From Neolewinella lacunae (GTDB lineage Bacteria; Bacteroidota; Bacteroidia; Chitinophagales; Saprospiraceae): a stretch of DNA of 64,000 nucleotides. The notes under the pieces were generated by a model. It did no database searches. It was not told where the DNA came from and was given only the letters and a program-made list of their open reading frames with translations. Numbering within the stretch: the first letter of the stretch is position 1; each line of letters starts with the position of its first letter. Below are positions 1,063-60,611 of the stretch, in pieces. The translations under genes were made by a program, and so were the position numbers. The stretch covers positions 246,919 through 310,918 of the forward strand of contig NZ_JACSIT010000141.1 of assembly GCF_014349155.1 (NCBI RefSeq), given 5' to 3'.

Positions 1063-1080
1063 GCACCTGCGGCCGCGCCC
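1063..1080 (+). repeat. Dispersed 18-bp repeat, copy 1
   Basis: Exact core GCACCTGCGGCCGCGCCC between msrC and scpA. Read on the minus strand, the core is followed by CAGGGAAGTTGAAGGAGCA and a run of G, the tail shared with several other copies. Confidence 0.85.
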
Positions 1081-1125
1081 CTATCCAGACACCAAGCCAG
1101 GCAAAAACTCTTTACCTTCGCGCCA

Positions 1126-1905
1126 ATGGCCGCCGGATACACGATAAAACTGCCCCAGTTCGAAGGTCCCTTCGACTTGCTCCTGTTCTTCATCGAGCGG
1201 GACGAGCTGGATATTTACGACATTCCCATTGCGAAGGTCACCGACGATTTTCTGGACTACATGCGGCAGGCCGAGGCGATGGACATTGACCTGGCCAGCG
1301 AATTTGTGTTGGTGGCCGCCACCCTGTGCCGCATCAAGGCCAAGATCCTCATCCCCCGCAAGGCCGTTGACGAACAGGGCAATGAGATTGACCCCCGCGA
1401 GGAACTCGTTTCCCGCCTGCTGGAGTACAAGCGCTATAAATCCGTGCTGGAAGAACTCCGCACCCTGGAAACGGAGCGGGGAATGCGCAATTACCGCGGC
1501 AACATCACCGACGAGCTGGCGCAGATTGCCGTGCGCGCGCTGGTGGACGTCGAGCTGGAAAGCGTCACCCTTTTCAAGCTGCTGAAGGCCTACGAAAGCC
1601 TGCTCGGCAAACTGGAGGAGGCCAGCAAACGGCCCGTCGTGCACGAGATTGCCCAGTTCAGCCACACCATCGAAGAGCAGCAAATCCGGATCATGGAGAT
1701 GGTCAGCGCCGTGCGTTTTGGCAAAGCGCGGCCCAGTTTTGCGGACCTTTTCAGCGTTTGCAAGACCCGTATCCACGCCATCGTTACCTTCCTCGGTTTG
1801 CTGGAATTGCTCAACGCGCGGGAGATCAGCATCGTCCCCGGCGAGGGACTTAACAATTTCTGGCTGGAGCCGGCCGGGGGAGAGAGCGGCAGCGAAGAGG
1901 AATAA
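1126..1905 (+). CDS. scpA: Segregation and condensation protein A (kleisin)
   Basis: 259 aa, usual for ScpA. The N-terminus carries the kleisin signature: FEGPFDLLLFFIERDELDIYD, then a region ending DYMRQ. It continues with DLASEFVLVAATLCRIKAKILIPR, the helix that contacts the SMC neck. The C-terminus is a winged-helix domain (FADLFSVCKTRIHAIVTFLGLLEL). ScpA closes the SMC-ScpAB ring that is loaded at ParB-parS sites, and parS-like palindromes lie at 22.2 kb. scpB is not in the window. The ATG at 1126 is the only start that keeps the family N-terminus intact. A dispersed repeat lies on either side of the gene. Confidence 0.95.
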   Translation: MAAGYTIKLPQFEGPFDLLLFFIERDELDIYDIPIAKVTDDFLDYMRQAEAMDIDLASEFVLVAATLCRIKAKILIPRKAVDEQGNEIDPREELVSRLLEYKRYKSVLEELRTLETERGMRNYRGNITDELAQIAVRALVDVELESVTLFKLLKAYESLLGKLEEASKRPVVHEIAQFSHTIEEQQIRIMEMVSAVRFGKARPSFADLFSVCKTRIHAIVTFLGLLELLNAREISIVPGEGLNNFWLEPAGGESGSEEE

Positions 1906-1909
1906 AACA

Positions 1910-1927
1910 GGGCGCGGCCGCAGGTGC
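1910..1927 (-). repeat. Dispersed 18-bp repeat, copy 2, with C-rich hairpin tail
   Basis: Exact core GGGCGCGGCCGCAGGTGC directly after scpA. It runs into a hairpin at 1927-1953 (CTCCCCCCC / GGGGGGAG) and then GGACAAGGAGCAAAGGGAG. It sits between the convergent scpA and mvaD genes, so the hairpin could also end transcription. Confidence 0.85.
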
Positions 1928-1986
1928 TCCCCCCCGACCCCCGGAGGGGGGAGTAGGGACAAGGAGCAAAGGGAGTCCGGCCGGGA

Positions 1987-7852: not shown

Positions 7853-10800
7853 CTACTCCTCTCCCAACACCAACACCTCCCCCGCCTGCACCTTCCGTTC
7901 CCCCCGCACGTTTTCGTATTCAATGGTGTAGACAAAGACGGCGGGATTGACGAGGCGGCCGTTGAAGCGGCCATCCCAGAGCGGGGTGTTGATGGTGATG
8001 GGGCCCTGGTCTGGGGTTTGCTCGAAGACGAGATTGCCCCAGCGACTATAAATGCGGATGGCGTCAATGCGCGCCACACTGACGCGCGGGAATATCCGCA
8101 AGTCGTCATTCGTCCCATCGCCGTTGGGGCTGAAGGCGGTAGGGACAAAAATATCCGTTTCCTGCAGCACCCCGATGAAGACACTGTCTTGCCGGCTGCA
8201 GCCCGTCAGGGTATCCAATGCCTCCAGCAAGTAGAGCGTTCCCCGCAGCGGTCGGGCCCAGGGTGATAGGGCGCTCGAATCGGATAAACTGGCACCGGGC
8301 GTCCAGGAAAAAAGCGTATTCAAACTGTTCACCTCGCTGTGCAGGCGGATGGAATCGCCGAGGGGTATGCTGGTATTCGGGATGGTGGAAAGCTCCAGCG
8401 GCCGCACGGGGTCCAGCCGAAAGTCAATCAAGGTATCACAGCCGTCGGGGCTGACGACTTCAAAGAGGTAATTGCCCGGCGTACGGAGGTTGAACTGGTT
8501 GCGCCCGGCGGAGAAATAGCCCTCCGGCCCCGAGCCCATGATGAGGTCTTCCGGGTTCTCCGTGCGGATGGCGACTGCCACGACTTCCCCCGCTTCACAA
8601 CGCGTGTCTTGCACCTGCGTCCGCGCCCTCGGATACTGCCGCAGATGGAAAGAAACTTCCGTATCCGCATAGCAAAGCCCGTCGAAACCGGTCCACAGCC
8701 GGGCCGTTATCTGGCCGCTGGTGTCGTAGCGGTGAGTGGGGTTGAGGCTGGTCAGCGGATCACTCCCGTCGCCCGGCAGCAGAAGGAAACTGCTCGCTTG
8801 CTGGAGGTTGCCCTCGTACTGAAACAAGACTTGCGTTGGGCCACAGCGCGTCGAATCGTAGGTGAGGTTGAGGCGGATATCGGGGGTAGGCCGCACGAAA
8901 GCCGGCGCAAAAGCCGTATCCGCACACCCCTGGCTGGAGGTGTAAATCAGTTGCACGGAATACAGCCCATCCTGCGCGTAGGCGTGCTCCACTTCGCAGC
9001 CGTCGCTGCCCTGCCCGTCCCCAAACAGCCAGCGGCAGCTTTGCCCCCCGCTTCCCGCGCTCAAAAAGACTTGCGGCTGGTTGGCACAAAGGGTATCCGG
9101 CGGCACAATGGCCGCGGTGGGTTGTGGCAGGACCTGCACAGTCTGGCTTCCTTCGGCGCGGCAGCCTTCGCTGCTCGTGGCGGTGTAACGCAGGAGGAGC
9201 GGCGCTGCGGATGGTGCGTAAAAATGGTTGCCGAGGTTCTGGCGGGTACTGTCTCCATCGCCAAAATACAGCAGCGTACTGGCGGCGTCCGATTGCAAAT
9301 GGTAGGCAAAAGGTGCGTAGGGGCAAACGAAGGAAGGTGCCGTAAGTGCCAGCGCGGGGCTGGGCAGTACCCGACCCGTCCAGCGGCTGCTGTCGTACCC
9401 ACAGCCGTAGGCGTAAATGGTAAAGGCAATGGGCCCCGGTGCATCAAAAACCACGGCCACGGAATCGCTGGCGAAGCGGCGGCCATCGGAAAAGACGTAT
9501 TCCACCCGCGTACCGGGCGTGGAGATGTTGTTGACGATGAAGGGCTGACCAACGCAAACGGTCGTATCCGTAAACGCCGGAAGGGCACGGATGTTGGTCG
9601 GTTCCACGGTCACGTCCACCGAGCTGCGGTCGTTCCGGCACGCATTGCCCACCTCCAACGTGTAGGTGATGGTGCGGGCCACGTCGCCCGTAACGGGGCG
9701 GAGCACGGGGGGCTGAAAGGACGTAAATTGCTGTCCGTCGGAGCTCGACCACGCCACCGCATCGAGGGTGCCGGTGGCCAAATTGGTCAGGATGAGCTCA
9801 CTCCCGCTGCAATTTTCGGGGTACACGACGCCGATATTGGCCACGGGGTTGGCCCGCAGCACCAGCTCGAAGCTACTTTGGGCGCGGCCGCAGGTGCCGA
9901 GCGTGTTGAGGGAGATGAGGAAGGTCGTATCCTCCAGCGGAGACGGAAAGGAGACCAATGTTGGACCCGTAGCGACGAAAGCAGTGTCTCCGTACCGCCA
10001 CTCGTACTCCAGGTTTTGCAGCGCCGCAGCCGGCGGTGGCGTGAAGCTCAGCAACAATTCCTCGCCCGGGCAGAGGGTATCCGTAGCGATGTTGATCGTC
10101 GCCGGCTCCGGCGGATCCAACACCCGCACGGAGGTGGAGGCGGGGGCGGAACTGCAAAGCACGGTGTTGTTGGTGGGGTGCCGCCGTTCGCCTACCACCG
10201 TCACGGTATAATCTCCGGCCTGCGGAAATTGATGACAGATGGAAGCGCCCGAACTGTTCAGGCCATCGCTGGTCCGCCAGCGGTACGTGTCCGCCGGGGT
10301 ACCGCCAGCCAGGAAAGTAACGCAGCTGCCGTCGTTACACGCCACCGCGTCTCCCGACAGCGTAGTGCTGGGCTGCGCAAGTAGTTCCACGCGGAAGTCC
10401 GCACTGTTGCAACCCGCCGGCAAGTCAGCAACGGTGTACTGGAAATTGTAGGTGCCCGGCGTGGCACCCGAGACATTAATGGATGTGGCGTTGATGGGCA
10501 AGTCGCCCGTCCAAACGCCCCCCAGGCCGGGGCTTACGCTGGGAAGCAGGAGCATGGCCGCCGTATCGCACAGAAAGGCGACGGGTTCCGCCACCGTGAC
10601 CCCATTGCCCGGGGCGATGGTGACCGTCACCTCGTCTTGACTTGCGCAGAATCCTTCTCCCAGGGTCAGGGTGTAGCGGTAAGTGCCCGGGGCAACGGCG
10701 GATAGGTTTAGGGTGCCGTCCGTTGCTGCTCCGGGGCCCGACCAACGGCCTGCCCCCGGATCACCCAAGGCGTAAGTCCCACCGCCGCCGCAGATGATGG

Positions 10801-12745
10801 TATCGGCTCCGGCGTTGGGCTGGACAATCTCCGTGATGGTCACGAACAGGGTGTCCGTTGTCGCGCAAAGCTCCGGGGTGCGCGGGTCTGCAACGCTGAT
10901 CAACACCGTATCGACTTCTCCAACGGCCAGGTTAGCGGGCCGATAAGTCCCCGCCGCGCCGTCGACGATGCCCCGGCCAACGAAAGAGAGTTGGCCGAAG
11001 GCGGGACTGAAAGAAAAGCCCGGGGCGGAGGCCAGCAGGTCGATCGTTTGGTCGGTATTACACACGGAAATGGGGCCACCCGTATTCAGCGTGGGTTCCG
11101 CCACCACTTCTGCATTCCAGCTGCCCGCTTCCGTACAGCCCGTTACCAGGTTTTCGCGCTGGTAGGCGATAGCGTAGGTGCCGGGGGATAACCCGGCGGG
11201 CGAAAAAGTGCGGGCCAGGTTATCCACCCCGGTTCCGCCCAGCGTTCCGTCGTTGGGCATAGGCATTAGGCTGACCGGTGGGGAACTCACGCAAATGAAA
11301 AAGTCGGGGGGCAGTTGGAGGGCGGAGTCTTCCAGGCGCAAATTGACCGTGAGGCTGCGCTCGCAAGCCCCCTGGCCCAGGGTGTAGGTGAAAGTGTAAT
11401 CCCCTGGAGCAGCTGATTGGTCAAAAAATGCTTCGCCGTTGCGGATGACGAGACCCACCGCTGGTGTCCAACGCCCACCAGCGTCGGAGACCTGGATGGC
11501 GACCAAGCCGGTATCCGGACAAAAAGCCGCCCCGTTGTTGGGCATCACCAGCGTGGGTTGAATAGCGGCGTCCACGAAAAGGGTGTCGGTAACGACCAGG
11601 AAACCGCATTCCGTGGTCTTTTCCGCCCGGATGACGTAGGGCGTTGCGCGGGCGGACATGGTAAAGGGAAAGGTAGTGACCACCGCGCCATCAATAAAGT
11701 AAGTCGCGTTGGGGTCGACGCCCGGGGTGGGGGTGTAGGCCAGGGAAGGACAGGCGTCGGGCTGGGGATTCAGTGTGAGGGTTTCGCCGCGAACTACGGT
11801 AATGGGACAGGGATGGGTCTGGGTTTCGTTGCAACTGCTGTTACGGCCAGTGAGGGTAAAGGTCCGCTCTCCCGGCGTCGTAAAGCAAACGCGGGTGATC
11901 AAGGCATCCGGGTCTTCGATGGTGACACCGCTGCCGTTGTTTACCGTCCAGCGCCAGCTGTCAATCCCCGTGGATGCACTGCCGTTGAGGCGAATGCAGC
12001 TTTCCCCCGCCAGGCAGACGCGGAAGTCGTTGTCGGGCCCCACGATGACGTTGGAATCCGGGGTGCCGACGACGGATGGCGCCTCGACAATATCTATCGT
12101 CCGCGACACCGCCCGCGTGCCACAGAGGTTGGTGGCCGAGAGGGTGAAGGTCTGGGGGCCGACCTCATCGAAGGCATAACTGATCTCGAAGTCGCGGCTG
12201 GTCGAGCCGTCGGGCAACGTCCAGAGGTAGGTCATGCTGGTATCGTTGCCGGGGCAGGTCAGGTTGAGCAGGTCGAGCATCGTGCCCGTACACGACACCA
12301 TGGGCAGGGTGAAGGCTGGTTCCGGGGGCTTCTGGAAGCCGATCCGCCGCGAAACGTTTTCGGAAGTGCCGTCGGTGTACTGTGCCACTACTTCGATGAG
12401 GAAGCAGGAGCCGTAGACTTGCCGGCTGATGCAGGCGTCGCTGTAATCGCATTCGTCAAAAAGCTCGGGAAAGGAGTAGGTAAAACTTCGGGTGAGTTGC
12501 GCCGGGTTGGTGATGACGACGGGCGGAACGTTGTCGCCGTCCCAAAAGAGCCGGACGGTGGAAAAAGTCCGGGCGGGGTCCGGGACGATATTGATCCGCA
12601 CCAGGCTGTCTTGGGCGCAGCGGGTAAAATCCCCGTTGACAATGGAAAAGGAGAGGTTGGGGTCTTGGGCGAGGAGGGCGCCACTAAAGAGCAGGCCCAG
12701 GCAAGCCAGAAACGCCATGCGGCACAGGGAGGTACTTGGTTTCAT
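7853..12745 (-). CDS. Giant PKD-rich secreted protein with type B T9SS C-terminal domain
   Basis: 1630 aa. It has an N-terminal signal peptide (MKPSTSLCRMAFLACLGLLF, then SGALLAQ), so it is exported by Sec. The body consists of tandem PKD/Ig-like beta domains, recognised by repeats of the WxxxDG...H.Y pattern (for example YFGDGDSTRQNLGNHFY and FGDGQGSDGCEVEHAY) with many cysteines. The last ~90 residues are the gliding-motility-associated type B sorting domain: VPTAFSPNGDGTNDDL, IRIYSRWGNLVFE, LWDGRFNG, NPAVFVYTIEY. This marks it as type IX secretion cargo bound for the cell surface or the medium. Two dispersed-repeat cores lie within the gene (8611 and 9880). Function is probably adhesion. 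Confidence 0.88.
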   Translation of the reverse strand: MKPSTSLCRMAFLACLGLLFSGALLAQDPNLSFSIVNGDFTRCAQDSLVRINIVPDPARTFSTVRLFWDGDNVPPVVITNPAQLTRSFTYSFPELFDECDYSDACISRQVYGSCFLIEVVAQYTDGTSENVSRRIGFQKPPEPAFTLPMVSCTGTMLDLLNLTCPGNDTSMTYLWTLPDGSTSRDFEISYAFDEVGPQTFTLSATNLCGTRAVSRTIDIVEAPSVVGTPDSNVIVGPDNDFRVCLAGESCIRLNGSASTGIDSWRWTVNNGSGVTIEDPDALITRVCFTTPGERTFTLTGRNSSCNETQTHPCPITVVRGETLTLNPQPDACPSLAYTPTPGVDPNATYFIDGAVVTTFPFTMSARATPYVIRAEKTTECGFLVVTDTLFVDAAIQPTLVMPNNGAAFCPDTGLVAIQVSDAGGRWTPAVGLVIRNGEAFFDQSAAPGDYTFTYTLGQGACERSLTVNLRLEDSALQLPPDFFICVSSPPVSLMPMPNDGTLGGTGVDNLARTFSPAGLSPGTYAIAYQRENLVTGCTEAGSWNAEVVAEPTLNTGGPISVCNTDQTIDLLASAPGFSFSPAFGQLSFVGRGIVDGAAGTYRPANLAVGEVDTVLISVADPRTPELCATTDTLFVTITEIVQPNAGADTIICGGGGTYALGDPGAGRWSGPGAATDGTLNLSAVAPGTYRYTLTLGEGFCASQDEVTVTIAPGNGVTVAEPVAFLCDTAAMLLLPSVSPGLGGVWTGDLPINATSINVSGATPGTYNFQYTVADLPAGCNSADFRVELLAQPSTTLSGDAVACNDGSCVTFLAGGTPADTYRWRTSDGLNSSGASICHQFPQAGDYTVTVVGERRHPTNNTVLCSSAPASTSVRVLDPPEPATINIATDTLCPGEELLLSFTPPPAAALQNLEYEWRYGDTAFVATGPTLVSFPSPLEDTTFLISLNTLGTCGRAQSSFELVLRANPVANIGVVYPENCSGSELILTNLATGTLDAVAWSSSDGQQFTSFQPPVLRPVTGDVARTITYTLEVGNACRNDRSSVDVTVEPTNIRALPAFTDTTVCVGQPFIVNNISTPGTRVEYVFSDGRRFASDSVAVVFDAPGPIAFTIYAYGCGYDSSRWTGRVLPSPALALTAPSFVCPYAPFAYHLQSDAASTLLYFGDGDSTRQNLGNHFYAPSAAPLLLRYTATSSEGCRAEGSQTVQVLPQPTAAIVPPDTLCANQPQVFLSAGSGGQSCRWLFGDGQGSDGCEVEHAYAQDGLYSVQLIYTSSQGCADTAFAPAFVRPTPDIRLNLTYDSTRCGPTQVLFQYEGNLQQASSFLLLPGDGSDPLTSLNPTHRYDTSGQITARLWTGFDGLCYADTEVSFHLRQYPRARTQVQDTRCEAGEVVAVAIRTENPEDLIMGSGPEGYFSAGRNQFNLRTPGNYLFEVVSPDGCDTLIDFRLDPVRPLELSTIPNTSIPLGDSIRLHSEVNSLNTLFSWTPGASLSDSSALSPWARPLRGTLYLLEALDTLTGCSRQDSVFIGVLQETDIFVPTAFSPNGDGTNDDLRIFPRVSVARIDAIRIYSRWGNLVFEQTPDQGPITINTPLWDGRFNGRLVNPAVFVYTIEYENVRGERKVQAGEVLVLGEE
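8611..8628 (+). repeat. Dispersed 18-bp repeat, copy 3 (inside the PKD-protein gene)
   Basis: GCACCTGCGTCCGCGCCC, one base off the core. On the gene's strand it is read as RARTQV. Confidence 0.75.
9880..9897 (-). repeat. Dispersed 18-bp repeat, copy 4 (inside the PKD-protein gene)
   Basis: Exact core. On the gene's strand it is read as GTCGRA, a different peptide from copy 3. Confidence 0.8.
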
Positions 12746-13360: not shown

Positions 13361-15058
13361 TCACAAATACGGCACTTTAAAAGCATCAAGGATCTCCATG
13401 GTTTCGCTTCGTTTTAAATCTTTGAATGAATTTCCTTTTTCGAAAGAAGATCGAATGTCTTCTATAGAACCATACCTGTTGACTAAATAAGTGAACTTAC
13501 CAGTTCGCTCAAATTTTCTATTTATGCTTTGGAGCGTTTTGTAGTAGTCGTTAAGTATGTCCTTAAGTCGATGTTCACGAAACATTTTCAGGAAGTTAAA
13601 CAAGTAACTTTCTGAAATCAGCGTCACGGGTTTTACGCTTCTGAAGGGGAAACCTTGAAGGAGAGAGGCGGCTTGTTCGTTTAACCAGTGGTTCACTCCA
13701 GGCATGGAAAACTGATCATGAGAATACACAATCACCGGGTAGATATCTACAGACTGTCGCCGGTGCTTTTGAGTGAAGTGGTCGAATCCGAATTCGGCCT
13801 TCGATAGGTACTCAATATGATTAGCGATCTGCTGGACTCCTTTGGGTTTGCCTTCGGCGTTTTTCAAGAATTTTTCCCGGACTGTAGCAGTGATATCCGC
13901 AAATGTAGCAGCTTCGGTAATTGCATCGGCAAAGAGCACATCCTTGTATTCGAAGATGAAGATGGAATTTCCTTGCCTAAGGTATCCATCGGGATATTCA
14001 TCTTTCTCGCCCAAATGAAGTACGTCATACTTATTTTTGCTGTAAGCGAATTTTAGAAGGCTCTGGAAGATGATCTCTTCTGATACATGTTTCCCGATAA
14101 AGGAGCGAAAAGTTGGAATGTCGCCGTAAGCCTTCCTTAGAGTCTTGGACCTGTAGAAAAGATCAAAGGTTACGCCAATACCCAGCTGGGAATACAAGAA
14201 ATTCCAGTTGGAGACCAGAAAGGCGTTGTCTTCAAAATGGAAAAGTGGCTGTTTTCGTATGCCAGCGTAGCGTATCTGGTCCCGTTTGTTGGCGGCGTAC
14301 TCCTCTGGATCAATGACTCTGCGCTCGATGATTTGGCGATAGGGATGATCGATGGGAATGTTCAGTAAAGGAAGTTCAACCCTGTTTTCCTTATGAATAG
14401 CTGCTTTGATGATATCTATGTAACCAGAAACGAAAGTCCAAGGGGTATCGAAACCGTAGTCGGCAAGATACTCCCTTACGGATGTACTGAATTCAGGCAG
14501 CTTCAGCATTTCCTCAAGAAAAGCATTGGTTTTTAGTGCCTGGAAAATTGGGTTGAGTTCAGTGGTAAACTCATATTGCTGGACTAGAGAAGGCCAGGTG
14601 AATTCGAAGAAGTGAGTGATTGGGTTCGCTTTGCTTCCAGTTAGCTTATCCTGGTTTTCAAAAATTGTTCTGTCAACAGAGACCAAGTAGGCAATGAAAA
14701 TTTTCAGTTCATCATCGGGGGTAGTATCGGGATGTTGATACTCAAACTCCCTCCAGTTCAGTAATTCCTGCTTAATAAATTCCATGACTAACCACGGGGA
14801 AAAGAAGGTTGGCTGATGACCAGCCTTGCGAGCTGCAACTGTTGCAGCGGCTAGTATTCCATTTTTTACTTTGTCAGACCAGTTTCGAGCTAAGAAGTCA
14901 AAGATTTTATCTTCACTAGTCCTCAGATATAAATGGTGATTGATGTAAGAGAGTACGACCAATACTATTCGAGATGGAATATGCTGGAGGAGCTCATCAA
15001 TTGCAGGTGTTTCCTTACCTGGAAATAACTGGCTGTAAGAAAATGGCACTAGGAGCAT
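13361..15058 (-). CDS. Predicted PD-(D/E)xK nuclease-like protein of an AT-rich island
   Basis: 565 aa from the ATG at 15058 (a GTG lies directly before it). No named family was recognised. Residues 325-372 show the pattern of a PD-(D/E)xK nuclease core: a helix with Glu327/Glu328 (HVSEEIIFQSLL), then EYPDGYLRQGN with Asp357, then a hydrophobic strand ending FEYKD (Glu370, Lys372). The first 300 residues are mostly helical. Base composition is much more AT-rich than the neighbours, and the gene stands alone between non-coding stretches of about 600 and 490 bases, as expected for a transferred gene. A defence or restriction-like role is possible but is inference. No methyltransferase or helicase partner is next to it. 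Confidence 0.6.
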   Translation of the reverse strand: MLLVPFSYSQLFPGKETPAIDELLQHIPSRIVLVVLSYINHHLYLRTSEDKIFDFLARNWSDKVKNGILAAATVAARKAGHQPTFFSPWLVMEFIKQELLNWREFEYQHPDTTPDDELKIFIAYLVSVDRTIFENQDKLTGSKANPITHFFEFTWPSLVQQYEFTTELNPIFQALKTNAFLEEMLKLPEFSTSVREYLADYGFDTPWTFVSGYIDIIKAAIHKENRVELPLLNIPIDHPYRQIIERRVIDPEEYAANKRDQIRYAGIRKQPLFHFEDNAFLVSNWNFLYSQLGIGVTFDLFYRSKTLRKAYGDIPTFRSFIGKHVSEEIIFQSLLKFAYSKNKYDVLHLGEKDEYPDGYLRQGNSIFIFEYKDVLFADAITEAATFADITATVREKFLKNAEGKPKGVQQIANHIEYLSKAEFGFDHFTQKHRRQSVDIYPVIVYSHDQFSMPGVNHWLNEQAASLLQGFPFRSVKPVTLISESYLFNFLKMFREHRLKDILNDYYKTLQSINRKFERTGKFTYLVNRYGSIEDIRSSFEKGNSFKDLKRSETMEILDAFKVPYL

Positions 15059-15246
15059 CACGCAAGGCTCTAGGGCTGCTCAAACTAAGTTCAGCCCATA
15101 AGCATAACAGTTGGTGAGATACTATTAGTTCCGCTTTACACTTTTGACGCCTATTGGAGGGAAGGTAGCCAAATCATAGGGCAAAAGTTGCGCAAAAATG
15201 ACACTCAACTCGCACTCCTGTTTTCCTTCTGTAGGGCGTTGTTTCA

Positions 15247-15269
15247 GCAAGATTTAGAGTAAATCTTGC
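15247..15269. repeat. Perfect 10-bp inverted repeat upstream of the nuclease gene
   Basis: GCAAGATTTA, three-base spacer, TAAATCTTGC. About 190 bases upstream of the nuclease start. It could be an operator or a short terminator; there is no T-run. Confidence 0.5.
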
Positions 15270-15304
15270 ACTACTGTTCGCATAGCCTGCACCTCCCTCC
15301 CCCT

Positions 15305-15322
15305 GCACCTGCGGCAGCGCCC
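15305..15322 (+). repeat. Dispersed 18-bp repeat, copy 5 (variant)
   Basis: GCACCTGCGGCAGCGCCC, one change in the variable middle of the core. Confidence 0.7.
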
Positions 15323-15548
15323 TAAAAACACGCCCACTAGCCCCAAAACCACCCCTCCCTACCCCCAAAACACCTGGCGCAAGGAAGGAAACCTGCCCCA
15401 ACCGCGCGCAACCCCATAAACGTTAAAACGCTAAACCGACGAACATCGATAATGGGTAAGCCGTACTAGCAAAAGGGCTTTAGAGCCCTGCCTGCTTCTT
15501 TTTTAGTAAACTTTTCTCCCCCTTTTTAACCCAAAAAAACCAACTAAC

Positions 15549-16562: not shown

Positions 16563-16618
16563 GAGCACCCCAGGCACGGGTTTAGCCCCGCCCCTTCGGG
16601 AGAAATAAGCGAAAGCTG

Positions 16619-16653
16619 AGCCCCTCCACCGTTTTGGTGGAGGGGCTTTTTTT
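16619..16653 (+). terminator. Rho-independent terminator after the propeller lipoprotein
   Basis: Perfect 12-bp stem AGCCCCTCCACC / GGTGGAGGGGCT, five-base loop, then a run of T. Confidence 0.95.
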
Positions 16654-22058: not shown

Positions 22059-22076
22059 GGGCGCGGCCGCTGGTGC
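22059..22076 (-). repeat. Dispersed 18-bp repeat, copy 6 (variant)
   Basis: GGGCGCGGCCGCTGGTGC, one base from the core; left arm of a 151-bp inverted pair with copy 7. Confidence 0.75.
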
Positions 22077-22191: not shown

Positions 22192-22209
22192 GCACCTGCG
22201 TCAGCGCCC
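22192..22209 (+). repeat. Dispersed 18-bp repeat, copy 7 (variant)
   Basis: GCACCTGCGTCAGCGCCC; right arm of the inverted pair with copy 6, 20 bases before the first parS site. Confidence 0.7.
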
Positions 22210-22245: not shown

Positions 22246-22268
22246 TTCACCCCCAGCCAGCCTGATAA

Positions 22269-22284: not shown

Positions 22285-22295
22285 TTCCCCAGCAG

Positions 22296-27309: not shown

Positions 27310-27327
27310 GGGCGCGGCCGCAGGTGC
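27310..27327 (-). repeat. Dispersed 18-bp repeat, copy 8
   Basis: Exact core followed by CAGGGACGTGACAAATGAGC and AAAGGAGGCC, the longer tail form. Confidence 0.85.
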
Positions 27328-27490: not shown

Positions 27491-27508
27491 GCACCTGCGA
27501 CCGCGCAA
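27491..27508 (+). repeat. Dispersed 18-bp repeat, copy 9 (degenerate)
   Basis: GCACCTGCGACCGCGCAA. The last bases diverge; its end overlaps the ybeY stop region. Pairs with copy 8 to enclose 199 bp. Confidence 0.65.
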
Positions 27509-35110: not shown

Positions 35111-35523
35111 CTCTTAATAGTTATTAATACTTTTTTAAAATTTAAATCCTATTGTCATCATCAGGCCTGTGGAAAGGGGGAGAACTCGTCGGCGCAAGGC
35201 TTGCGTAAATCATTCCACACATTTTAGACCCGGATTTCCACGCATTTTCAACAGCGAAAAGTGAGGAAGGATGCGCTTTTGCAAAATTATCCACAGCGTG
35301 GGGAATCCTTCTCCACCGCATAACTTTTTGGGGGGCGGGTGGGGAATTTTGACGCTTACCTGTCAGTATGCCGTGGATTCCCGACGCAGCAAAATGTGGA
35401 AATGTGGAAAAAGGGCCCCTTGGGCGCGGCCGCAGGTGCCGGGCTGTGGATAAGGGGCAATGTTTCCACGCTTTTCCCCATCTTAGCTGTGGAAATCAGT
35501 CGATCATAACCATCAGGTTTACA
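35111..35523. other. oriC: Candidate chromosomal replication origin (oriC)
   Basis: 413 bases without a gene, at the point where gene orientation flips from mostly minus to mostly plus. An AT-rich run at 35112-35155 could unwind. Consensus DnaA boxes follow: TTATCCACA at 35287-35295, TGTGGAAAA at 35403-35411 and TGTGGATAA at 35445-35453. Close variants are at 35168, 35245 (TTTTCAACA), 35395 and 35488. The dispersed repeat copy at 35422 sits between two boxes. dnaA itself is not in the window, which is not unusual in this phylum. The AT-rich edge may also serve as the ctaA promoter. Confidence 0.7.
35422..35439 (-). repeat. Dispersed 18-bp repeat, copy 10
   Basis: Exact core inside the oriC candidate, 6 bases before a consensus DnaA box. 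Confidence 0.85.
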
Positions 35524-37965
35524 ATGCCTTTACGTATGCTTAATCTTGCCCCTGTGGAGAACTTCCGGCGGCTTTGGCCCCAACTTAGTACGGTTTGCGT
35601 CCTGCTCATCCTGTTTTGGGGCGCTGGGCTGGGGGCACAAGACTGGGCGGAGCGGGCCTGGGAGGCCAGCTGGATCACCCACCCCACGGCGCCGTCACGC
35701 GAGTTTGCCGTGTTGCACTTCCGCCGCACTTTTTCGCTGGAGGCCGTCCCGGACTCCCTCCCCGTCCTCGTCTCCGCCGATAACCGTTACCAACTCTTCG
35801 TCAACGGCCGGCGCGTCGGCGAAGGACCCGCCCGCGGTGATCTCCTTCACTGGCGCTACGAGACCTACGATCTGGGCCCCTACTTGCAACCGGGCAATAA
35901 CGTCATTGCCGCCCAGGTGTGGAACTACGGCGTGGACGGACCCTGGAGCCAGCACAGCTACCGCACGGCTTTTGTCCTGCAGCCCACCTCGCCTGCGTTC
36001 GCCGGATTGCGTACCGATGGCCAGTGGCGGAGCTACCACAACAGCGCCTATTCCCCGCTCACCGGGGCCCGTGAACGGCTCCGTACCTACCTCGTGGTTG
36101 GCCCCCAGTTGCGCATCGCTGGGGACCAATTTCCGTGGAACTGGGAAAGGCAGGATTATGCCGACTCCCACTGGGCCCCCGCTAAAACCCTCCTCAAAGC
36201 GGCACCCGCCGGACTGGGCAGCGAATTTTACTGGGCCCTGGTCCCCCGGCAGATTCCGCTCATCACCCGCCAGCCGCTGCCTCTTCCCGGCGTGGTACGC
36301 AGCGGCCAGCGCCAGACCTTCGGTCAGGAACCGTACCAGCTGCCCGCCGGTACTACCGATACGCTATTGCTCGACTTCGGCCAGCTGGAAAACTTCTTCT
36401 TCAACTTCAGCACCACCGGCGGAAAAGGCGCCCGCCTGCGCATCACCTACGCCGAAAGCCTGATCGATAAGGCGGGACGAAAAGGCCAGCGCGACGCCAC
36501 CCAAGGCAAAACAATGCATGGGGTCTACGACGAATTTATCCTCGACGGCGGAGCGAAGCGGAGTTATTCCACCCCCTGGTTCCGCACCGCCCGTTACGTG
36601 GAAGTCATCATCGATAACCCTTCCGAAGCGCTGTCTTTCCAACTGGCCCCCGCCGAGTCTTTTGCCTACCCCTTCACCGAACGCGGCAGCTTCAAAACCG
36701 CCGCCAATGCGCTGCGGGCGGAAGACATCTGGCGCGTAGGCTGGCAAACCGCCCGCATGTGTGCCCAGGAAACTTACGTCGATTGCCCCTACTACGAACA
36801 GCTGCAGTACGCGGGCGACACCCGCATCCAGGCCCTCATCAGCCTCTACGTTGCGGGAGACGATCGCCTGATGCGCAAAGCCATCTTACTCTTTGACCAA
36901 AGCCGCACCAGCGACGGACTCACCCAGAGCCGCTACCCGTCCAATGTCCTCCAAATCATCCCACCCTATTCCCTGTCCTGGATTGAAATGGTGGGCGACT
37001 ACTGGATGCACCGCCCCGATACGAGCTTTGTCCAAGACCGCCTTGAGGGGGTCCACGCCGTACTCAACTGGTACCACCAACAACTGCTGCCCAACGGCCT
37101 GGTGGGGCCTACGGATTACTGGAACTTCGTTGACTGGACCCCGGAATGGCCCTGGAGCGAGTCCCTCCGCGCGGGCGGTGTCCCCGATCTCGAAGGCGGC
37201 TCCAGCATCATTAGTTTGCAGTACGCCCTGGCCCTCCGGACGGCGGCAAAGCTCTGTGCTTACTTCGACGCGCCCGACTTTGCCGGTACGTACAGCGCCC
37301 GGGCAGAGCGCATCATCCAGGCCGTTTCCCAACACTGCTGGAATGCCGAGCGAAGACTGTTCAGCGATACGCCCGCCGGTACCACTTACAGCCAGCACGC
37401 CAATATCCTGGCTTTGTTGACGGACCTGGCACCTGCGCCCGCGCCCCAAACGCCCACCAGCCTCCAGAATTTTCAGGAAGCCCTGCTGGAAAAAACCCTC
37501 ACCTCACCAGGTTTGGCCCAGGTTTCGGAGTACTTCCGCTTCTACCTCATCCAGGCCCTTTACCACACGGGCAACGGCCACCGCTACCCCGAACAACTGG
37601 ATATTTGGGCGCGCTACCTCGATCAGGGCTTCACCACCTTCCCCGAAAAAGGCGGCGAGACCCGCTCGGATTGCCACGCCTGGAGCGCCAGCCCGAACTA
37701 CGATTTGCTGGCCACCTTCGCCGGTATTCGCCCCGCCAGCCCAGGGTTTGCGGAAGTATCCATCCAGCCCGCCCTGGCCCCCTTCGCCTACGAAGCCGTA
37801 GTCGCCCACCCCCAGGGCGTAGTCCGGCTAAGCGCCAACCCAGACGAAAAAAACGTACACTTCGAGATCGAATTACCCCAGGGAGTAACGGGCACCTTCT
37901 CTCTCGGCAGCCAAGAAAAGTCCCTCACCGGTGGGATCAACAAAATCAGCGTCCAGCGGGAATAA
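35524..37965 (+). CDS. Alpha-L-rhamnosidase (GH78-like)
   Basis: 813 aa from the ATG at 35524; the upstream frame crosses the DnaA-box cluster and is not coding. A hydrophobic stretch near the N-terminus (LSTVCVLLILFWGAGLGAQ) looks like a signal peptide after a long basic start. Beta domains follow (AVLHFRRTF..., LFVNGRRVGEGPARGD), then the (alpha/alpha)6 catalytic barrel. It contains ETYVDCPYYEQLQYAGDTR, the GH78 acid-rich motif in variant form, PPYSLSWIEMVGDYW, TDYWNFVDW and RSDCHAWSASPNYDLL. It should release rhamnose from polysaccharides outside the cytoplasm. It holds one dispersed-repeat core (37429). Confidence 0.88.
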   Translation: MPLRMLNLAPVENFRRLWPQLSTVCVLLILFWGAGLGAQDWAERAWEASWITHPTAPSREFAVLHFRRTFSLEAVPDSLPVLVSADNRYQLFVNGRRVGEGPARGDLLHWRYETYDLGPYLQPGNNVIAAQVWNYGVDGPWSQHSYRTAFVLQPTSPAFAGLRTDGQWRSYHNSAYSPLTGARERLRTYLVVGPQLRIAGDQFPWNWERQDYADSHWAPAKTLLKAAPAGLGSEFYWALVPRQIPLITRQPLPLPGVVRSGQRQTFGQEPYQLPAGTTDTLLLDFGQLENFFFNFSTTGGKGARLRITYAESLIDKAGRKGQRDATQGKTMHGVYDEFILDGGAKRSYSTPWFRTARYVEVIIDNPSEALSFQLAPAESFAYPFTERGSFKTAANALRAEDIWRVGWQTARMCAQETYVDCPYYEQLQYAGDTRIQALISLYVAGDDRLMRKAILLFDQSRTSDGLTQSRYPSNVLQIIPPYSLSWIEMVGDYWMHRPDTSFVQDRLEGVHAVLNWYHQQLLPNGLVGPTDYWNFVDWTPEWPWSESLRAGGVPDLEGGSSIISLQYALALRTAAKLCAYFDAPDFAGTYSARAERIIQAVSQHCWNAERRLFSDTPAGTTYSQHANILALLTDLAPAPAPQTPTSLQNFQEALLEKTLTSPGLAQVSEYFRFYLIQALYHTGNGHRYPEQLDIWARYLDQGFTTFPEKGGETRSDCHAWSASPNYDLLATFAGIRPASPGFAEVSIQPALAPFAYEAVVAHPQGVVRLSANPDEKNVHFEIELPQGVTGTFSLGSQEKSLTGGINKISVQRE
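37429..37446 (+). repeat. Dispersed 18-bp repeat, copy 11 (inside rhamnosidase gene)
   Basis: GCACCTGCGCCCGCGCCC, read as APAPAP in a linker between barrel helices. Confidence 0.75.
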
Positions 37966-42037: not shown

Positions 42038-42760
42038 GTGTTCAGCAAATCACAAATTCCCAACCTCATCACGCTGCTCAACCTCTTCTGTGGTTGTGCG
42101 GCCATCATCAGTGTGCTCGATCAGCAGTTCGTTGCCGCGTTCTGGTTTCTGTTTGCGGCGGGCTGGTTCGACTTCGGCGATGGGCTGGCGGCCCGCCTGC
42201 TCGGGGTATCGAGTGAGCACGGCAAAGAGCTCGACAGTTTGGCGGATATGGTTTCCTTCGGGGCGGTGCCCGGCGTCATTTACTATACTTTGCTCTTCGC
42301 AGGACAAGACCCGGCACCTGCGTCCGCGCCCGCCATCGGCTGGTCCTGGTACGCCGCACCCGGGCTGGTGGTTACCTTATTTTCTGCGCTGCGCCTGGCC
42401 AAGTTCAACCTCGATACCCGGCAATCCGAAAATTTTATCGGCGTGGCCACCCCCACCAGTACCGTTTTTGCGGTGGGCCTGATGCTCATTTACGATCAGG
42501 ATGCCTTCGGCTGGGCGGCCTACGTCAGTAGTCCGCTGGTGCTTTTTCCGGTCATTGCCCTGTTTTCCTACCTGCTCGTTTCGGAGCACCCCATGTTTTC
42601 TTTCAAGATCAAGGGAGCTAAGTGGGCGGGCAACGAGACGCGGATTATCTTTGCGGCCCTCGCCCTCGCCCTGCTGCTCGCCCTGCGCGCGGCAGCTTTC
42701 CCCTTCATCGTGGGCGTGTACCTGGTCATCAATTTTCTCGCGCCGCCCCCGCGCCACTAA
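42038..42760 (+). CDS. pssA: CDP-diacylglycerol-serine O-phosphatidyltransferase
   Basis: 240 aa, GTG start. A multi-span enzyme making phosphatidylserine. The CDP-alcohol phosphotransferase signature is complete: D48-G49, A52-R53, G62, D66 and D70, in FGDGLAARLLGVSSEHGKEL followed by DSLAD. After the second membrane segment a loop reads DPAPASAPAIG; this is the dispersed repeat core in coding form and is probably an insertion in a variable loop. purS follows 12 bases later. Confidence 0.92.
   Translation: MFSKSQIPNLITLLNLFCGCAAIISVLDQQFVAAFWFLFAAGWFDFGDGLAARLLGVSSEHGKELDSLADMVSFGAVPGVIYYTLLFAGQDPAPASAPAIGWSWYAAPGLVVTLFSALRLAKFNLDTRQSENFIGVATPTSTVFAVGLMLIYDQDAFGWAAYVSSPLVLFPVIALFSYLLVSEHPMFSFKIKGAKWAGNETRIIFAALALALLLALRAAAFPFIVGVYLVINFLAPPPRH
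42314..42331 (+). repeat. Dispersed 18-bp repeat, copy 12 (inside pssA)
   Basis: GCACCTGCGTCCGCGCCC, read as APASAP in a loop between membrane segments. Confidence 0.75.
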
Positions 42761-43067: not shown

Positions 43068-43085
43068 GGGCGCGGCCGCAGGTGC
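43068..43085 (-). repeat. Dispersed 18-bp repeat, copy 13
   Basis: Exact core between purS and msrB, with a tail GGGGAACGGACCAATGAGCG and then AGG plus a C run. Confidence 0.85.
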
Positions 43086-47983: not shown

Positions 47984-48175
47984 TGGCGGAGCCGGGGGGC
48001 GGAAGGTGGACAAAAGTACCGAAAACGCGGGAAGGCGCAGCCTTTTACCTGCGGGAATGACCCACCGCTTGCCAAAGCTACGGCAAAACTCCTCCTCCCC
48101 ACGGGAGTACCCGGCGAGCGGAGGTATTCCCCCGCTCCCCGTCCATACTCCCCCCACTCGGGGGGGCGGGGGGGA

Positions 48176-48193
48176 GCACCTGCGGCCGCGCCC
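48176..48193 (+). repeat. Dispersed 18-bp repeat, copy 14, with G-rich hairpin
   Basis: Exact core. Upstream CTCCCCCC...GGGGGGGAG forms the same hairpin as in copies 2 and 15. It lies in the divergent interval between the HD hydrolase and phosphatase genes. Confidence 0.85.
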
Positions 48194-51218: not shown

Positions 51219-51236
51219 GGGCGCGGCCGCAGGTGC
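51219..51236 (-). repeat. Dispersed 18-bp repeat, copy 15, with C-rich hairpins
   Basis: Exact core followed by CTCCCCCC/GGGGGGAG and then a second C/G hairpin (GGCCCCCAACCCCCAATGGGG-type). Confidence 0.85.
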
Positions 51237-51339
51237 TCCCCCCCGACCCCCCGAAGGGGGGAGAATGTTGGCCCCCAACCCCCAATGGGGGAGAGCAAGG
51301 GACGGTGGAGACTTCCCTTGCTCCCCAAAGACATTCCCT

Positions 51340-51357
51340 GCACCTGCGTGCGCGCCC
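51340..51357 (+). repeat. Dispersed 18-bp repeat, copy 16 (variant)
   Basis: GCACCTGCGTGCGCGCCC; closes the 139-bp inverted pair with copy 15. Confidence 0.7.
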
Positions 51358-58001: not shown

Positions 58002-58019
58002 GCACCTGCGGCCGCGCCC
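58002..58019 (+). repeat. Dispersed 18-bp repeat, copy 17
   Basis: Exact core, with CGGACTTCCCTTGCTCCTCG upstream, the GAGCAAGGGAAG tail of the family. Lies 43 bases before the SRAP gene start. Confidence 0.85.
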
Positions 58020-58062: not shown

Positions 58063-58743
58063 ATGTGCGGACGTTACAGCATCGTAATCGATGAGGCGAA
58101 GTTGCGGCAGCAATTTGGCAACGAGCTAAAGTTCCCCCCTGCAGGCCTACCCACCAATTACAACGTGGCCCCCACGCAGCAGGGCCTGGTGCTGACTGAC
58201 CGCGACCCACAGCAGTTGCAGTTGTTCCGTTGGGGCCTGGTGCCTTTCTGGGCCAAAGACCTGAGCATCGGTGCCCGCATGATCAACGCCCGCCGGGAGG
58301 GCATTGAGGATAAACCCAGTTTCCGCCAGGCCATCCGCCAGCGCCGTTGCCTGGTGCTGGCCGATAGCTTTTACGAATGGCAACGCGTGGGCAAGGCCAA
58401 AACGCCGCACCGGATTTTACCCGCCGATGGCCAGCTCCTCGTCATGGCCGGTATCTGGGAACAGTGGCGCCCCCCCGACGACCCCGAACACCCCATCCAC
58501 ACTTTTTCCATCATCACCGGCGATCCCAACGCGGAAATGGACGCCATCCACGACCGGATGCCCATGCTGCTCTACACCCCGCAAAGCCAGGCGCGCTGGC
58601 TGGATCCGGCGACTTCCCTCGATGGCGTGCTCGACCTCCTGCATACCCCGCCCGGCGGGATGCTGCACCACTACGCCGTCTCTCCGCTGGTGGGCAACGT
58701 CCGCAATAACGGCCCCGAACTTCATGCTGCGCAAGTGGCGTAA
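58063..58743 (+). CDS. SOS-response-associated peptidase / HMCES-YedK abasic-site sensor
   Basis: 226 aa. The start is fixed by MCGRY, because Cys2 becomes the N-terminal nucleophile that links to abasic sites. Further SRAP residues are seen: RWGLVPFWAKD, INARREGIEDKPSF, DSFYEWQRVG with the catalytic Glu, TGDPNAEMDAIHDRMPML with the active His, and the VSPLVGNVRNNGPE end. It shields abasic sites in single-stranded DNA at forks. It lies next to dnaB but diverges from it. Confidence 0.94.
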   Translation: MCGRYSIVIDEAKLRQQFGNELKFPPAGLPTNYNVAPTQQGLVLTDRDPQQLQLFRWGLVPFWAKDLSIGARMINARREGIEDKPSFRQAIRQRRCLVLADSFYEWQRVGKAKTPHRILPADGQLLVMAGIWEQWRPPDDPEHPIHTFSIITGDPNAEMDAIHDRMPMLLYTPQSQARWLDPATSLDGVLDLLHTPPGGMLHHYAVSPLVGNVRNNGPELHAAQVA

Positions 58744-58752
58744 ATTGCGGCC

Positions 58753-59301
58753 ATGTCTTATCCTCACCGCATCGTAGCGGCTACCCCGGCCGACTACCCG
58801 ACCATCCAGCAGATTGCCCACCTCACCTGGCCGGATACCTTCGCGGGCATTCTGGAGCCCGCCCAGATTGCCTACATGCTGCACCACATGTACCGCACCG
58901 AAGCCCTCGAAGCCCAGGTGGCCGCCGGCCACGTCTTTTACCTGCTACTGGAACCCCAAACAGAGGCCGCTGCGCCCGATTACCCTCCTGCCACGGGCAC
59001 GGCCTACGCCGCCGTCGGCTACGTCAGTTATCAGCTGGATTACTTGCCCGGCACCGCCAAAATCCACAAACTCTACGTCTTACCCAGCACCCAGGGCAAG
59101 GGCTACGGCAAGGCCTTGATTGAGCACGTCGCAACGATTGCTACCGCCGCCGGCCAAGGCGCGCTGCGCCTCGATGTCAATTACCAAAACCGCGCCATCA
59201 ATTTCTACGAGCACCTTGGCTTCCAGAAAATCGACCGCTTCGATACCGACATCGGCAACGGCTACCGGATGGAAGACTGGCGAATGGAACGACCCCTCTA
59301 A
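58753..59301 (+). CDS. GNAT-family N-acetyltransferase
   Basis: 182 aa. Seen: [20 protein letters not shown], the central strand [20 protein letters not shown] with the acetyl-CoA loop QGKGYG, and [20 protein letters not shown], the standard GNAT end. The insert [15 protein letters not shown] between strands 3 and 4 is longer than usual. Substrate unknown. It begins 9 bases after the SRAP stop, and dtd follows 19 bases later, so the three are probably one operon. Confidence 0.9.
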
Positions 59302-59320
59302 CCCCCCAAAAACTACCGCT

Positions 59321-59773
59321 GTGCGCGCTTTGCTTCAACGTGTTTCCTCCGCTTCCGTCACCGCCGACGGTACCATCACCGGGCAGATTGGCCCCGGACT
59401 ACTCATCCTGCTCGGCATCGAAGAGGCGGACGGGCCGGAGGACATCGACTGGCTCTGCGGCAAGATTGCCCGGCTCCGTATTTTCAGCGACGCGGAGGGG
59501 AAGATGAACTTGAGCGTGGCCGATACGGGGGGCGGTTTACTGGTCGTATCTCAGTTCACCCTCTTCGCCAGCACCAAAAAAGGCAACCGCCCCAGTTTCA
59601 TTCGCAGCGCACGGCCGGAGCTGGCCATCCCCCTGTACGAACACTTCCTGGCCGCCCTGGCCACCGTCGTAAACCGCCCCGTGGCCAGCGGCGTCTTCGG
59701 GGCCGACATGCAGGTGGCCCTGGTCAACGACGGACCCGTTACGATCTGGATCGACAGCCAGGCTAAGGAATGA
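59321..59773 (+). CDS. dtd: D-aminoacyl-tRNA deacylase
   Basis: 150 aa, GTG start at 59321 giving the family N-terminus [14 protein letters not shown]; the open frame before it overlaps the GNAT gene. Catalytic motifs are [17 protein letters not shown] and [13 protein letters not shown] (the NxGPxT type). It removes D-amino acids from tRNA. Its 3' end overlaps the truA 3' end by 11 bases in convergent orientation. Confidence 0.94.
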
Positions 59774-60611
59774 CCGCCTCCCACGCCTCGCCGGCGGTGG
59801 TGGGAAGGTCGGGTTCGCGGTTGAGGTAAGGATAGCGTACCCCCGTTAGAAAAAGTCCCTCGGCCGGTGCCAGCAGAAAAGGGGCAGTGCGAACGCCCGT
59901 GGCGAGCATGGCCGAGAAATCCGTAGTGCGTTGCGCCGCTTTTCCCACGCGCCAGAGGTCGCTGACCAGCAGGCGGATCATCCCCCGTAAAAAGCGATCG
60001 GCGACGAATTGCAGCCGGTAGCGGTTGCCGCCCGCGTTGTGGTAAAGTTGTATCGACTGGAGGGTGCAGCGGGTGCTGTTGTGCCGATCGGGGGCCTTGC
60101 AGAAGGCGCGAAAATCGTGGGTGCCGACGAGCTCTTGGAGGTTCTCGGTCAGGGCGGCGGGTTGGAAGTCGGTCAGGTCCAGCAGCGCGCTGTAGCGGTT
60201 CAGCAGGGCGTGGGTTTGGCCGTGGAAAAAGTAATCGTAGGTGCGTTGCGTGGCATCAAAGCGGGCGTGGGTGCCGGCGCCGACGGGCAGGAGTTCCAGC
60301 ACCGTGATGTCGGGTGGCAAGTGTTTATTGAGGATGAACAAATAGTTGGCGGGCGGGGGTTCCGGGGTGGTGAGGTGAACGTAAAACTGGGTGGCGTGGA
60401 CGCCCGCGTCGGTGCGCCCGCAGGCTCCGGCGGGCAGGGCCTGGCCGTGAATGCGGGCCAGCGCCGTTTCGAGCACTTCCTGCACCGTTTGGCGGCTGTT
60501 CAGCTGGCGTTGCCAGCCCCGGTAGGCTGTTCCGTCGTAAGCAAGGCGCAGGAAGTAGTCGATGGCTCGTTGGTTTTTTTTTGAGTGGGCGCGGCCGCAG
60601 GTGCCGGGCAA
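59763..60611 (-). CDS. truA: tRNA pseudouridine(38-40) synthase TruA, unusual start
   Basis: About 270 aa of family sequence. Seen: [18 protein letters not shown], the catalytic Asp in [17 protein letters not shown], and the [19 protein letters not shown] region. The start is a problem. No ATG, GTG or TTG occurs between the TTG at 60611 and the conserved [11 protein letters not shown] start would translate a dispersed repeat core into PGTCGRAH followed by Ser and two Lys. An ATC codon (in GCC ATC GAC) is another candidate. The function call is sure; the N-terminus is not. Confidence 0.88.
60587..60604 (-). repeat. Dispersed 18-bp repeat, copy 18
   Basis: Exact core at the very 5' end of truA, with the tail CGGGCAAAGTTGAAGGCGAT, then GGGAGG and a C run, as in copies 1 and 13. 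Confidence 0.85.

Follow-up and report, generated by a model that had tools for sequence, protein, structure and literature searches.

Why does one 18-bp word recur throughout a 64-kb stretch of a Neolewinella genome (here called the window), inside genes as well as between them? An earlier note on this DNA had offered four options: a REP-like element, a DNA uptake sequence, a HIP1-like iterated word or the binding site of a chromosome-organising protein. The second of these fits best: in our reading, to which we give about two chances in three, the word probably serves this Neolewinella species as a self tag of the DNA-uptake type. The options of a HIP1-like word and of a chromosome-organiser site are weaker, and the REP-like option is rejected below as a general explanation. 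The earlier note knew of no description of such a word for this lineage, and we likewise found none in the open-access literature searched.

Form and abundance of the word

The word, GGGCGC[GT]G[CA]CGCAGGTGC, is 18 bp long and GC-rich. A re-scan of the window recovered at no more than three mismatches all 18 positions that had been listed, ten exact and eight with one to three mismatches, with 8 copies on the forward and 10 on the reverse strand (Table 1). That this is not chance, as had been supposed, is borne out by 100 dinucleotide-preserving shuffles of the window, which gave a mean of 0.17 matches and never reached 18.

Table 1. Copies of the 18-bp word in the 64-kb window
Position	Strand	Match	Context
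1063..1080	-	exact	
1910..1927	+	exact	poly-C hairpin after it at 1929
8611..8628	-	1 mismatch	within ORF 7853-12745 (PKD/CHU_C domains)
9880..9897	+	exact	within ORF 7853-12745, opposite strand
15305..15322	-	1 mismatch	
22059..22076	+	1 mismatch	facing copy 22192
22192..22209	-	2 mismatches	facing copy 22059; adjoins parS-like cluster
27310..27327	+	exact	
27491..27508	-	3 mismatches	
35422..35439	+	exact	close to 5' end of ORF 35368-37965 (start as called, provisional)
37429..37446	-	1 mismatch	within alpha-L-rhamnosidase-like ORF; best alignment gapped here
42314..42331	-	1 mismatch	within CDP-alcohol phosphatidyltransferase ORF; best alignment without gap
43068..43085	+	exact	
48176..48193	-	exact	5' end of called ORF (start provisional), then poly-C hairpin 48151-48173 (-)
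51219..51236	+	exact	then poly-C hairpin 51239-51261; facing copy 51340
51340..51357	-	2 mismatches	facing copy 51219
58002..58019	-	exact	5' end of called SRAP ORF (start provisional)
60587..60604	+	exact	5' end of called tRNA pseudouridine synthase ORF (start provisional)

The whole 5.8 Mb genome (G000) contains 596 exact copies, 308 forward and 288 reverse, while the control, the same word read backwards, has none; the core SNNNNCGCRGGTGC is present in 1565 copies against 111 for its control. The outcome that the earlier note had named as refuting its claim, no excess outside the window, thus did not occur, and the abundance lies in the hundreds to thousands that characterise the DNA uptake sequences (DUS) of Neisseriaceae and the uptake signal sequences (USS) of Pasteurellaceae. 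In a detailed sample of 464 kb of this genome, window included, copies with 0, 1, 2, 3 and 4 mismatches number 69, 34, 24, 12 and 39. The rise at four mismatches suggests that chance matches start there, and a copy was therefore defined as a match with at most three. Perfect copies outnumber those with one mismatch (69 vs 34), as is the case for DUS and USS.

The left flank of the word is T-rich, and Gs near +21, +25/26, +33/34 and +39/40, with the first base of the word as 0, show weak conservation. Strands are balanced inside long contigs (45/47, 14/15 and 10/8), and density in 4-kb bins is 0.20 copies per kb at a GC fraction below 0.53 and 0.33 above 0.62.

Dialects across the genus

Exact copies in sister species number from 0 to 283. 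Much of this variation is accounted for by species dialects of the word, which are clear in several sister Neolewinella species, and covariation of exact counts between species is misleading because species lacking exact copies use other words. The core SNNNNCGCRGGTGC is found in 372–1664 copies in 18 of the 20 other genus members (20–185 for the reversed control). G001 has its own word (433 copies vs 0 for the control), and so has G010, whose word (421 vs 1) is unrelated to that of G000. Dialects are also seen at orthologous sites: at HemW, G017 has its own form, and at AnmK, G015 has one like that of G001. A single-gene tree is in rough agreement with the dialects, with 6 of its 16 inner branches open.

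Beyond the genus, no comparable word was found in 60 kb of G021 or 80 kb of G023, small samples that make this a weak negative, although the same test did yield a word in 80 kb each of G000 and G010; two further genomes (G022 and G024, 20 kb each) were examined pooled only. Twenty-two IMG/VR stretches have one exact match each, and a phage origin was rejected on this ground, as single matches could be chance. Ten of at least 80 loci in a scan of named genomes belong to unrelated bacteria (Comamonas, Gordonia, Streptomyces and others) with one match each, and these ten, among the matches listed, are probably chance.

Placement and spacing

Half of the copies in the 464-kb sample are coding (69/139). 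When neighbouring copies are merged into sites, 64 of 119 lie in coding DNA, yet density is 0.90 per kb in intergenic DNA vs 0.17 in coding DNA. Non-coding DNA is thus preferred but not exclusively so, and 12 facing pairs occur, a combination also typical of DUS and USS.

The copies are more evenly spaced than random placement would give. The coefficient of variation (CV) of the gaps in G000 is 0.597 vs 0.904 ± 0.078 in simulations, none of 5000 being as low, and none of 2000 was as low when the null took the different densities in coding and intergenic DNA into account. Spacing is also more regular than random in G005, G014 and G002 (12, 0 and 34 of 3000 simulations as low); the regularity is weak in G001, G013 and G017 (266, 318 and 91 of 3000), and a small sample of G010 (16 sites, CV 0.98) is no more regular than random.

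Origin of the coding copies

Alignment to homologues was possible for 18 of the 69 coding copies, the other 51 giving no alignment, and among these 18 there are 15 with at least one gapless alignment; overall, 42 of 49 alignments have no gap at the word. Most alignable coding copies thus appear to have been made in place by base change in pre-existing sequence, as is expected of DUS and USS, and the sites in HemW and PheT were both counted for substitution. The rate of gaps at the word (7/49) exceeds that of the other 7-residue stretches in these alignments (2.5%), so that for a minority of the coding copies indels, or a location in indel-prone places, may be involved. At AnmK the word is gapped in three of four alignments with a gap just before it in the fourth, and at CobB one of two alignments is gapped. 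Local identity is low, down to 0.27, in several gapless alignments, and some of the aligned homologues themselves have the word.

At the PheT site the DNA word is conserved beyond what the protein would account for. Of 12 aligned relatives 7 retain the word at each of its six wobble bases, while the 115 other six-wobble windows of this gene piece are retained in none (94 windows), one (18) or two (3) of the 12. The remaining five relatives have unrelated bases in place of the word, with small compensating gaps inside it in two of them, and in all 16 PheT matches (377–387 bases) query and subject spans are equal. An initial figure of 1.00 wobble identity in the word and 0.53 outside used only the seven word-bearing relatives and is hence partly built in.

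Hairpins and mobile repeats

Could the word instead be a mobile REP/REPIN or MITE-like repeat that spreads by inserting itself, whether or not a RAYT (Y1 transposase) takes part? Its left edge is sharp, the 464-kb sample has 2 outward pairs besides the 12 facing inverted ones, part of the intergenic copies have extended hairpin arms with a nested poly-C hairpin, and the exact copy number varies strongly among sister species. We nevertheless consider this very improbable. Half of the copies are coding and most alignments are gapless, and insertion is already contradicted for most alignable coding copies; the variation in exact counts is largely due to dialects, and random insertion is not expected to give regular spacing. 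The earlier note had proposed looking for a RAYT transposase that covaries with the motif, but across the genus matches to Y1_Tnp (Pfam) do not follow copy number: none was found in G018 with its 258 copies, while G010 and G017 lack exact copies yet have one and two matches. G000 itself has two (44 and 33 bits), and only a single copy, with 3 mismatches, lies within ~1.5 kb of these genes. As a set, the copies are therefore neither extragenic and insertion-spread nor linked to a Y1 transposase that tracks them, and we rejected REPIN/RAYT, and with it the REP-like option, as a general explanation.

Some intergenic copies form hairpins and may be mobile. A tentative reading, compatible with the preferred one, is that there are two layers, an uptake-type word spread everywhere by substitution and intergenic hairpin elements (facing pairs and poly-C units) that carry this word and copy themselves or serve as terminators. 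In the sample, 22 poly-C hairpins out of 26 come directly after the word, and a facing partner is present for 20 of 67 intergenic vs 2 of 45 deep-coding copies. Hairpin units of ~84 bp, 88–95% identical, occur in at least 13 intergenic places in a search that scored some of the candidates, and these larger units look like products of copying. Neisserial DUS are also described to form close inverted pairs that serve as terminators (PMC2397512). Against two layers, no transposase was linked, and the word is as dense in tandem as in convergent and divergent gaps (1.15, 1.12 and 1.18 per kb), so there is no terminator preference and a role as terminator only was rejected.

The reader of the word

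The competence genes that the earlier note had suggested looking for are in part present: ComEC is found in all 21 genus genomes, but also in 37 of 40 genomes overall and is hence not specific, and G000 has a dprA gene that bears an exact copy of the word. Our search of open-access literature brought up no competence experiment with Neolewinella. Secretin was found in 0 of 21 genus genomes. The pilus/secretion ATPase T2SSE narrowly reaches the family cut-off in 11 genus members (24.9–25.5 bits), with G000 below it, and because these matches are borderline and short (about positions 139–222 of 370), in ORFs of ~940–1070 residues, we read them as other ATPases rather than a convincing pilus ATPase. 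A known pilin receptor (ComP-type) is therefore unlikely to read the word. As searches for secretin and T2SSE did not reveal the type IV pilus system through which known DUS and USS are read by a minor pilin receptor, our claim is that the word works like these sequences, not that it belongs to the pilus-read systems.

The failure to find uptake machinery of a known kind (secretin, T2SSE) would also suit the main rival. Under it, the word is bound by a protein inside the cell, such as an organiser of the nucleoid or a factor for segregation or repair, or else is an iterated word of the HIP1 type; selection within the cell, and not uptake, would then maintain it. A compaction site would suit the regular spacing and balanced strands, the conservation at PheT suits any binding site, and the even spacing of known uptake sequences itself once prompted a proposal of replication, repair or compaction, as discussed in PMC1939737. 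We consider this rival unlikely. The excess of exact over one-mismatch copies is unlike the sites of ordinary regulatory proteins as these are characterised in PMC1626085, with a housekeeping protein one would hardly expect fast change of the word among sisters or the unrelated word of G010, and the word is neither the octamer of HIP1 nor, over its full length, a palindrome.

For the preferred reading, a self tag for uptake, we infer uptake, receptor and competence, and the following mechanism is proposed. A putative sequence-specific receptor of the cell envelope would prefer DNA fragments with the word, which would then be incorporated by homologous recombination. Alleles that by chance are nearer to the word would enter and recombine at a higher rate, and copies would build up by point substitution, through molecular drive or selection, wherever the protein tolerates them. 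Little would be gained from a further copy near one already present, which would give regular spacing, and a shift in receptor preference would make the species drift to a new dialect.

Comparison with known systems

A 2016 review names two families with sequence-specific uptake, Pasteurellaceae and Neisseriaceae (PMC5031613). Within the Bacteroidota, Riemerella columbina is reported to prefer its own DNA, with no uptake word established for it in that account (PMC7965970). We lean, with somewhat less confidence than for the tag itself, towards a third, independently evolved system of sequence-tagged uptake, in Bacteroidota without a recognisable type IV pilus, with an unknown envelope receptor for an 18-bp word, dialects within one genus and an unrelated replacement word in at least one species (G010). 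If true, a third case in another phylum would make the general theory (drive versus 'safe sex') testable anew, and, as the known pilus reader did not turn up, would suggest a DNA receptor of a new kind. Should the uptake reading prove wrong, a word of 18 bp with species dialects across a genus would still be a genomic signature in need of a reader protein.

REP/REPIN sequences with RAYT share with this word the facing inverted pairs of part of the intergenic copies, and differ in that most alignable coding copies here appear to have arisen without insertion and no linked RAYT was found. HIP1 of cyanobacteria (GCGATCGC) occurs inside genes. It is likewise described as a very abundant word (PMC4390886). 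HIP1 is, however, an 8-bp palindrome tied to orphan methyltransferases, whereas the Neolewinella word has 18 bp and dialects, lacks GCGATCGC and does not form a palindrome over its full length; GCGGCCGC is part of its exact form but not of the common A-variant. The USS of Pasteurellaceae belong to another phylum, while the word here is 18 bp long and GC-rich, its role in uptake is putative, and no type IV pilus machinery (secretin, T2SSE) was found. The USS are nevertheless alike in the features given for them in PMC1626085: a very strong consensus, somewhat regular spacing, close oppositely oriented pairs, higher density in non-coding DNA with many coding copies, an origin other than insertion, and extra flanking motifs. 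Compared with the DUS of Neisseriaceae, the Neolewinella word is longer, is replaced by an unrelated one in G010 and is unlikely to have a ComP-type receptor, but the two are alike in being one word with species dialects (as described in PMC3630211) and in forming close inverted pairs (PMC2397512).

Copies and dialects of the word

The earlier note had listed eighteen copies of the 18-bp word in the window and all eighteen positions are correct, ten of them exact, with eight forward and ten reverse and 0.17 expected from shuffles. The genome-wide count that it called for gave 596 exact copies in the 5.8-Mb genome, compared with 0 for the word read backwards as a control. In a 464-kb sample of this genome, made up of the window and 20 further stretches, we found 139 copies with up to three mismatches. 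They share the consensus GGGCGC[GT]G[CA]CGCAGGTGC, whose left edge is sharp and preceded by a T-rich stretch; coding and intergenic copies alike show weakly conserved Gs downstream, near +21, +25/26, +33/34 and +39/40. A pattern scan of named genomes returned at least 80 loci, mostly in Neolewinella, Lewinella and unnamed Bacteroidia or Saprospiraceae records; among the matches listed, 10 loci belong to unrelated bacteria, each with a single match. The open-access literature searched gave no description of the word for the Neolewinella lineage.

The exact word is found in 17 of the 20 other genus members, at 1 to 283 copies each, and in none of 19 genomes outside the genus. The samples comprise 200 kb from each of six relatives, 100 kb from each of eight and 20–80 kb from each of four other genera, and six genus members lie outside them. 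Several sampled species with few or no exact copies have their own version of the word (see table). At the orthologous HemW site G017 carries its own dialect, AGGCGGGGCCGCGGGTGC, and at the orthologous AnmK site G015 carries the G001-like GACGGAGCGCAGGTGC. No clear dialect was found in the samples of G004, G006 and G012. In the G004 sample (L296–L300) CGTCCAACGG and CGTTGGACGG are over-represented, at 19 and 18 copies per 100 kb where about 0.5 would be expected, and in the G013 sample (L230–L239) words around GGTGCTCAAGGTCCT are strongly over-represented, perhaps as a local repeat array.

A common core, SNNNNCGCRGGTGC, occurs 372–1664 times in 18 of the 20 other members, against 20–185 for the reversed control, the exceptions being G001 (104 against 89) and G010 (39 against 40). 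Beyond the genus the maximum is 150 against 100, in the sister-genus genome G021. The G001 word CGGNGCGCAGGTA has 433 copies in G001 against 0 for its control, 22 in G006 and 0–10 in other members. G010 contains a dispersed word unrelated to the 18-mer, TGCTACTTTGNAG, seen in L311–L315 in both orientations, with 421 copies genome-wide against 1 for the control and at most one in any other genus member. A single-gene tree of 19 members groups the dialects roughly, with weak support and 6 of 16 inner branches open.

Dialects of the word in sampled genus members and poly-C hairpins in the window
Feature	Genome or position	Sequence
Dialect	G001	CGGCGGAGCGCAGGTAGA
Dialect	G017	GGGCGGGG[AC]CGCGGGTGC
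Dialect	G013	GGCGCTGCCGC[AG]GGTGC
Dialect	G019	GGTCGCGGGTGCAA
Poly-C hairpin	window 1929-1951	CCCCCCGACCCCCCGAAGGGGGG type
Poly-C hairpin	window 48151-48173	CCCCCCGACCCCCCGAAGGGGGG type
Poly-C hairpin	window 51239-51261	CCCCCCGACCCCCCGAAGGGGGG type

Spacing, strand and placement

The gaps between 119 merged sites in 444 kb of the N. lacunae genome have a CV of 0.597, compared with 0.904 ± 0.078 under random placement, where 0 of 5000 simulations are as low; a null weighted for coding and intergenic density gives 0.917, as low in 0 of 2000. Spacing is also regular in G005, G014 and G002 (12, 0 and 34 of 3000 simulations as low) and leans weakly that way in G001, G013 and G017 (266, 318 and 91 of 3000); regularity is absent from the small G010 sample of 16 sites (2071 of 3000). 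Chi and KOPS are replication-polar sites, and the balance of strands within N. lacunae contigs (45/47, 14/15 and 10/8) argues against a site of this kind.

By a simple home-made gene call, which is crude, assigns 86% of the sample as coding and takes start codons as called, 69 of the 139 copies are coding and 70 non-coding; some window copies at called ORF 5′ ends may really lie upstream of the gene. Outside genes the density of merged sites, 0.90 per kb, is about five times that in coding sequence (0.17 per kb). Intergenic copies are in part paired, with 12 facing and 2 outward pairs whose starts are less than 170 bp apart, and 22 of the 26 poly-C hairpins in the sample lie directly 3′ of the 18-mer. 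A second, copy-type process behind these intergenic hairpin units is plausible.

Window 13361-19478 has lower GC, four ORFs without a Pfam match and a single copy of the word. At window 22230-22352 the palindrome TGTTCCACGTGGAACA, which we take to be parS-like, occurs in four exact copies next to a threonine synthase ORF, suggesting that the window is near the replication origin.

Origin and conservation of coding copies

Coding copies encode recurring peptides, among them ARPQVQ, GAAAGA, APAAAP and CTCVSAQ. Among the loci retrieved, alignable homologues exist for eighteen of the 69 copies but not for the other 51, and 15 of the 18 have at least one gapless alignment. In total 42 of 49 alignments are gapless at the word plus two residues, though some are locally weak and the word is also present in some homologues. 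Elsewhere in these alignments gaps are rarer (2.5%), which means that the word may prefer indel-tolerant places or that a few copies may involve indels. The alignable coding copies appear mostly not to be insertions. The REP-like element proposed earlier fails as a general explanation: the coding copies, mostly gapless where alignable, contradict a REPIN/RAYT origin, as does the failure of Y1_Tnp to covary with the word.

DNA alignments were made at four chosen sites. Of 12 relatives aligned at PheT, 7 retain the word and 5 have unrelated bases in its place, two of these with small compensating gaps; query and subject spans are equal in all 16 hits of 377–387 bases, and the word lies in the B5 domain, where the Pfam alignment is full (67 positions to 67 residues). 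Eight of nine HemW alignments are gapless at the word, one of two at CobB has gaps, and at AnmK three of four have gaps inside the word and the fourth is gapped immediately ahead of it. Across the 12 PheT relatives, 7 share every one of the word's six wobble bases, while the 115 other six-wobble-base windows in the same piece are conserved in none (94), one (18) or two (3) of them. This excess shows that the DNA word is conserved beyond the protein at PheT. A nucleoid or HIP1-like site could also produce such conservation and the even spacing, but the excess of perfect copies and the rapid change of dialects make this a less likely, though possible, reading.

Candidate uptake machinery and comparison with known systems

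We think instead that the word would mark self DNA for uptake, a reading that the unbiased PheT wobble control strengthens slightly. All 21 genus genomes have ComEC, as do most relatives, and a dprA gene is present; a secretin was found in 0 of 21 genus genomes. Matches to the pilus/secretion ATPase family narrowly reach the cut-off in 11 genus members, at 24.9–25.5 bits, with N. lacunae below it; they span only some 84 of the 370 positions, lie in ORFs of approximately 940–1070 aa, and we read them as other ATPases, a result that slightly weakens the uptake reading. With no secretin found and only short borderline ATPase matches, a ComP-like pilin receptor for the word is unlikely. Within the Bacteroidota, Riemerella columbina is described as transformable and preferring its own DNA, with the uptake word not established (PMC7965970).

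Uptake signal sequences (USS) are described as combining a strong consensus with regular spacing and as occurring in close pairs of opposite orientation; they prefer non-coding DNA yet have many coding copies, and arise by substitution rather than insertion, with gaps in 24% of 474 alignments (PMC1626085). DNA uptake sequences (DUS) form dialects among species (PMC3630211). The Neolewinella word shares consensus strength, regular spacing, opposite pairs, non-coding preference and, in most alignable coding copies, substitution with USS, and dialects with DUS. Among the options in the earlier note the DNA uptake sequence fits best, and it is because this feature set is that of USS and DUS that we read the word as a probable self tag.
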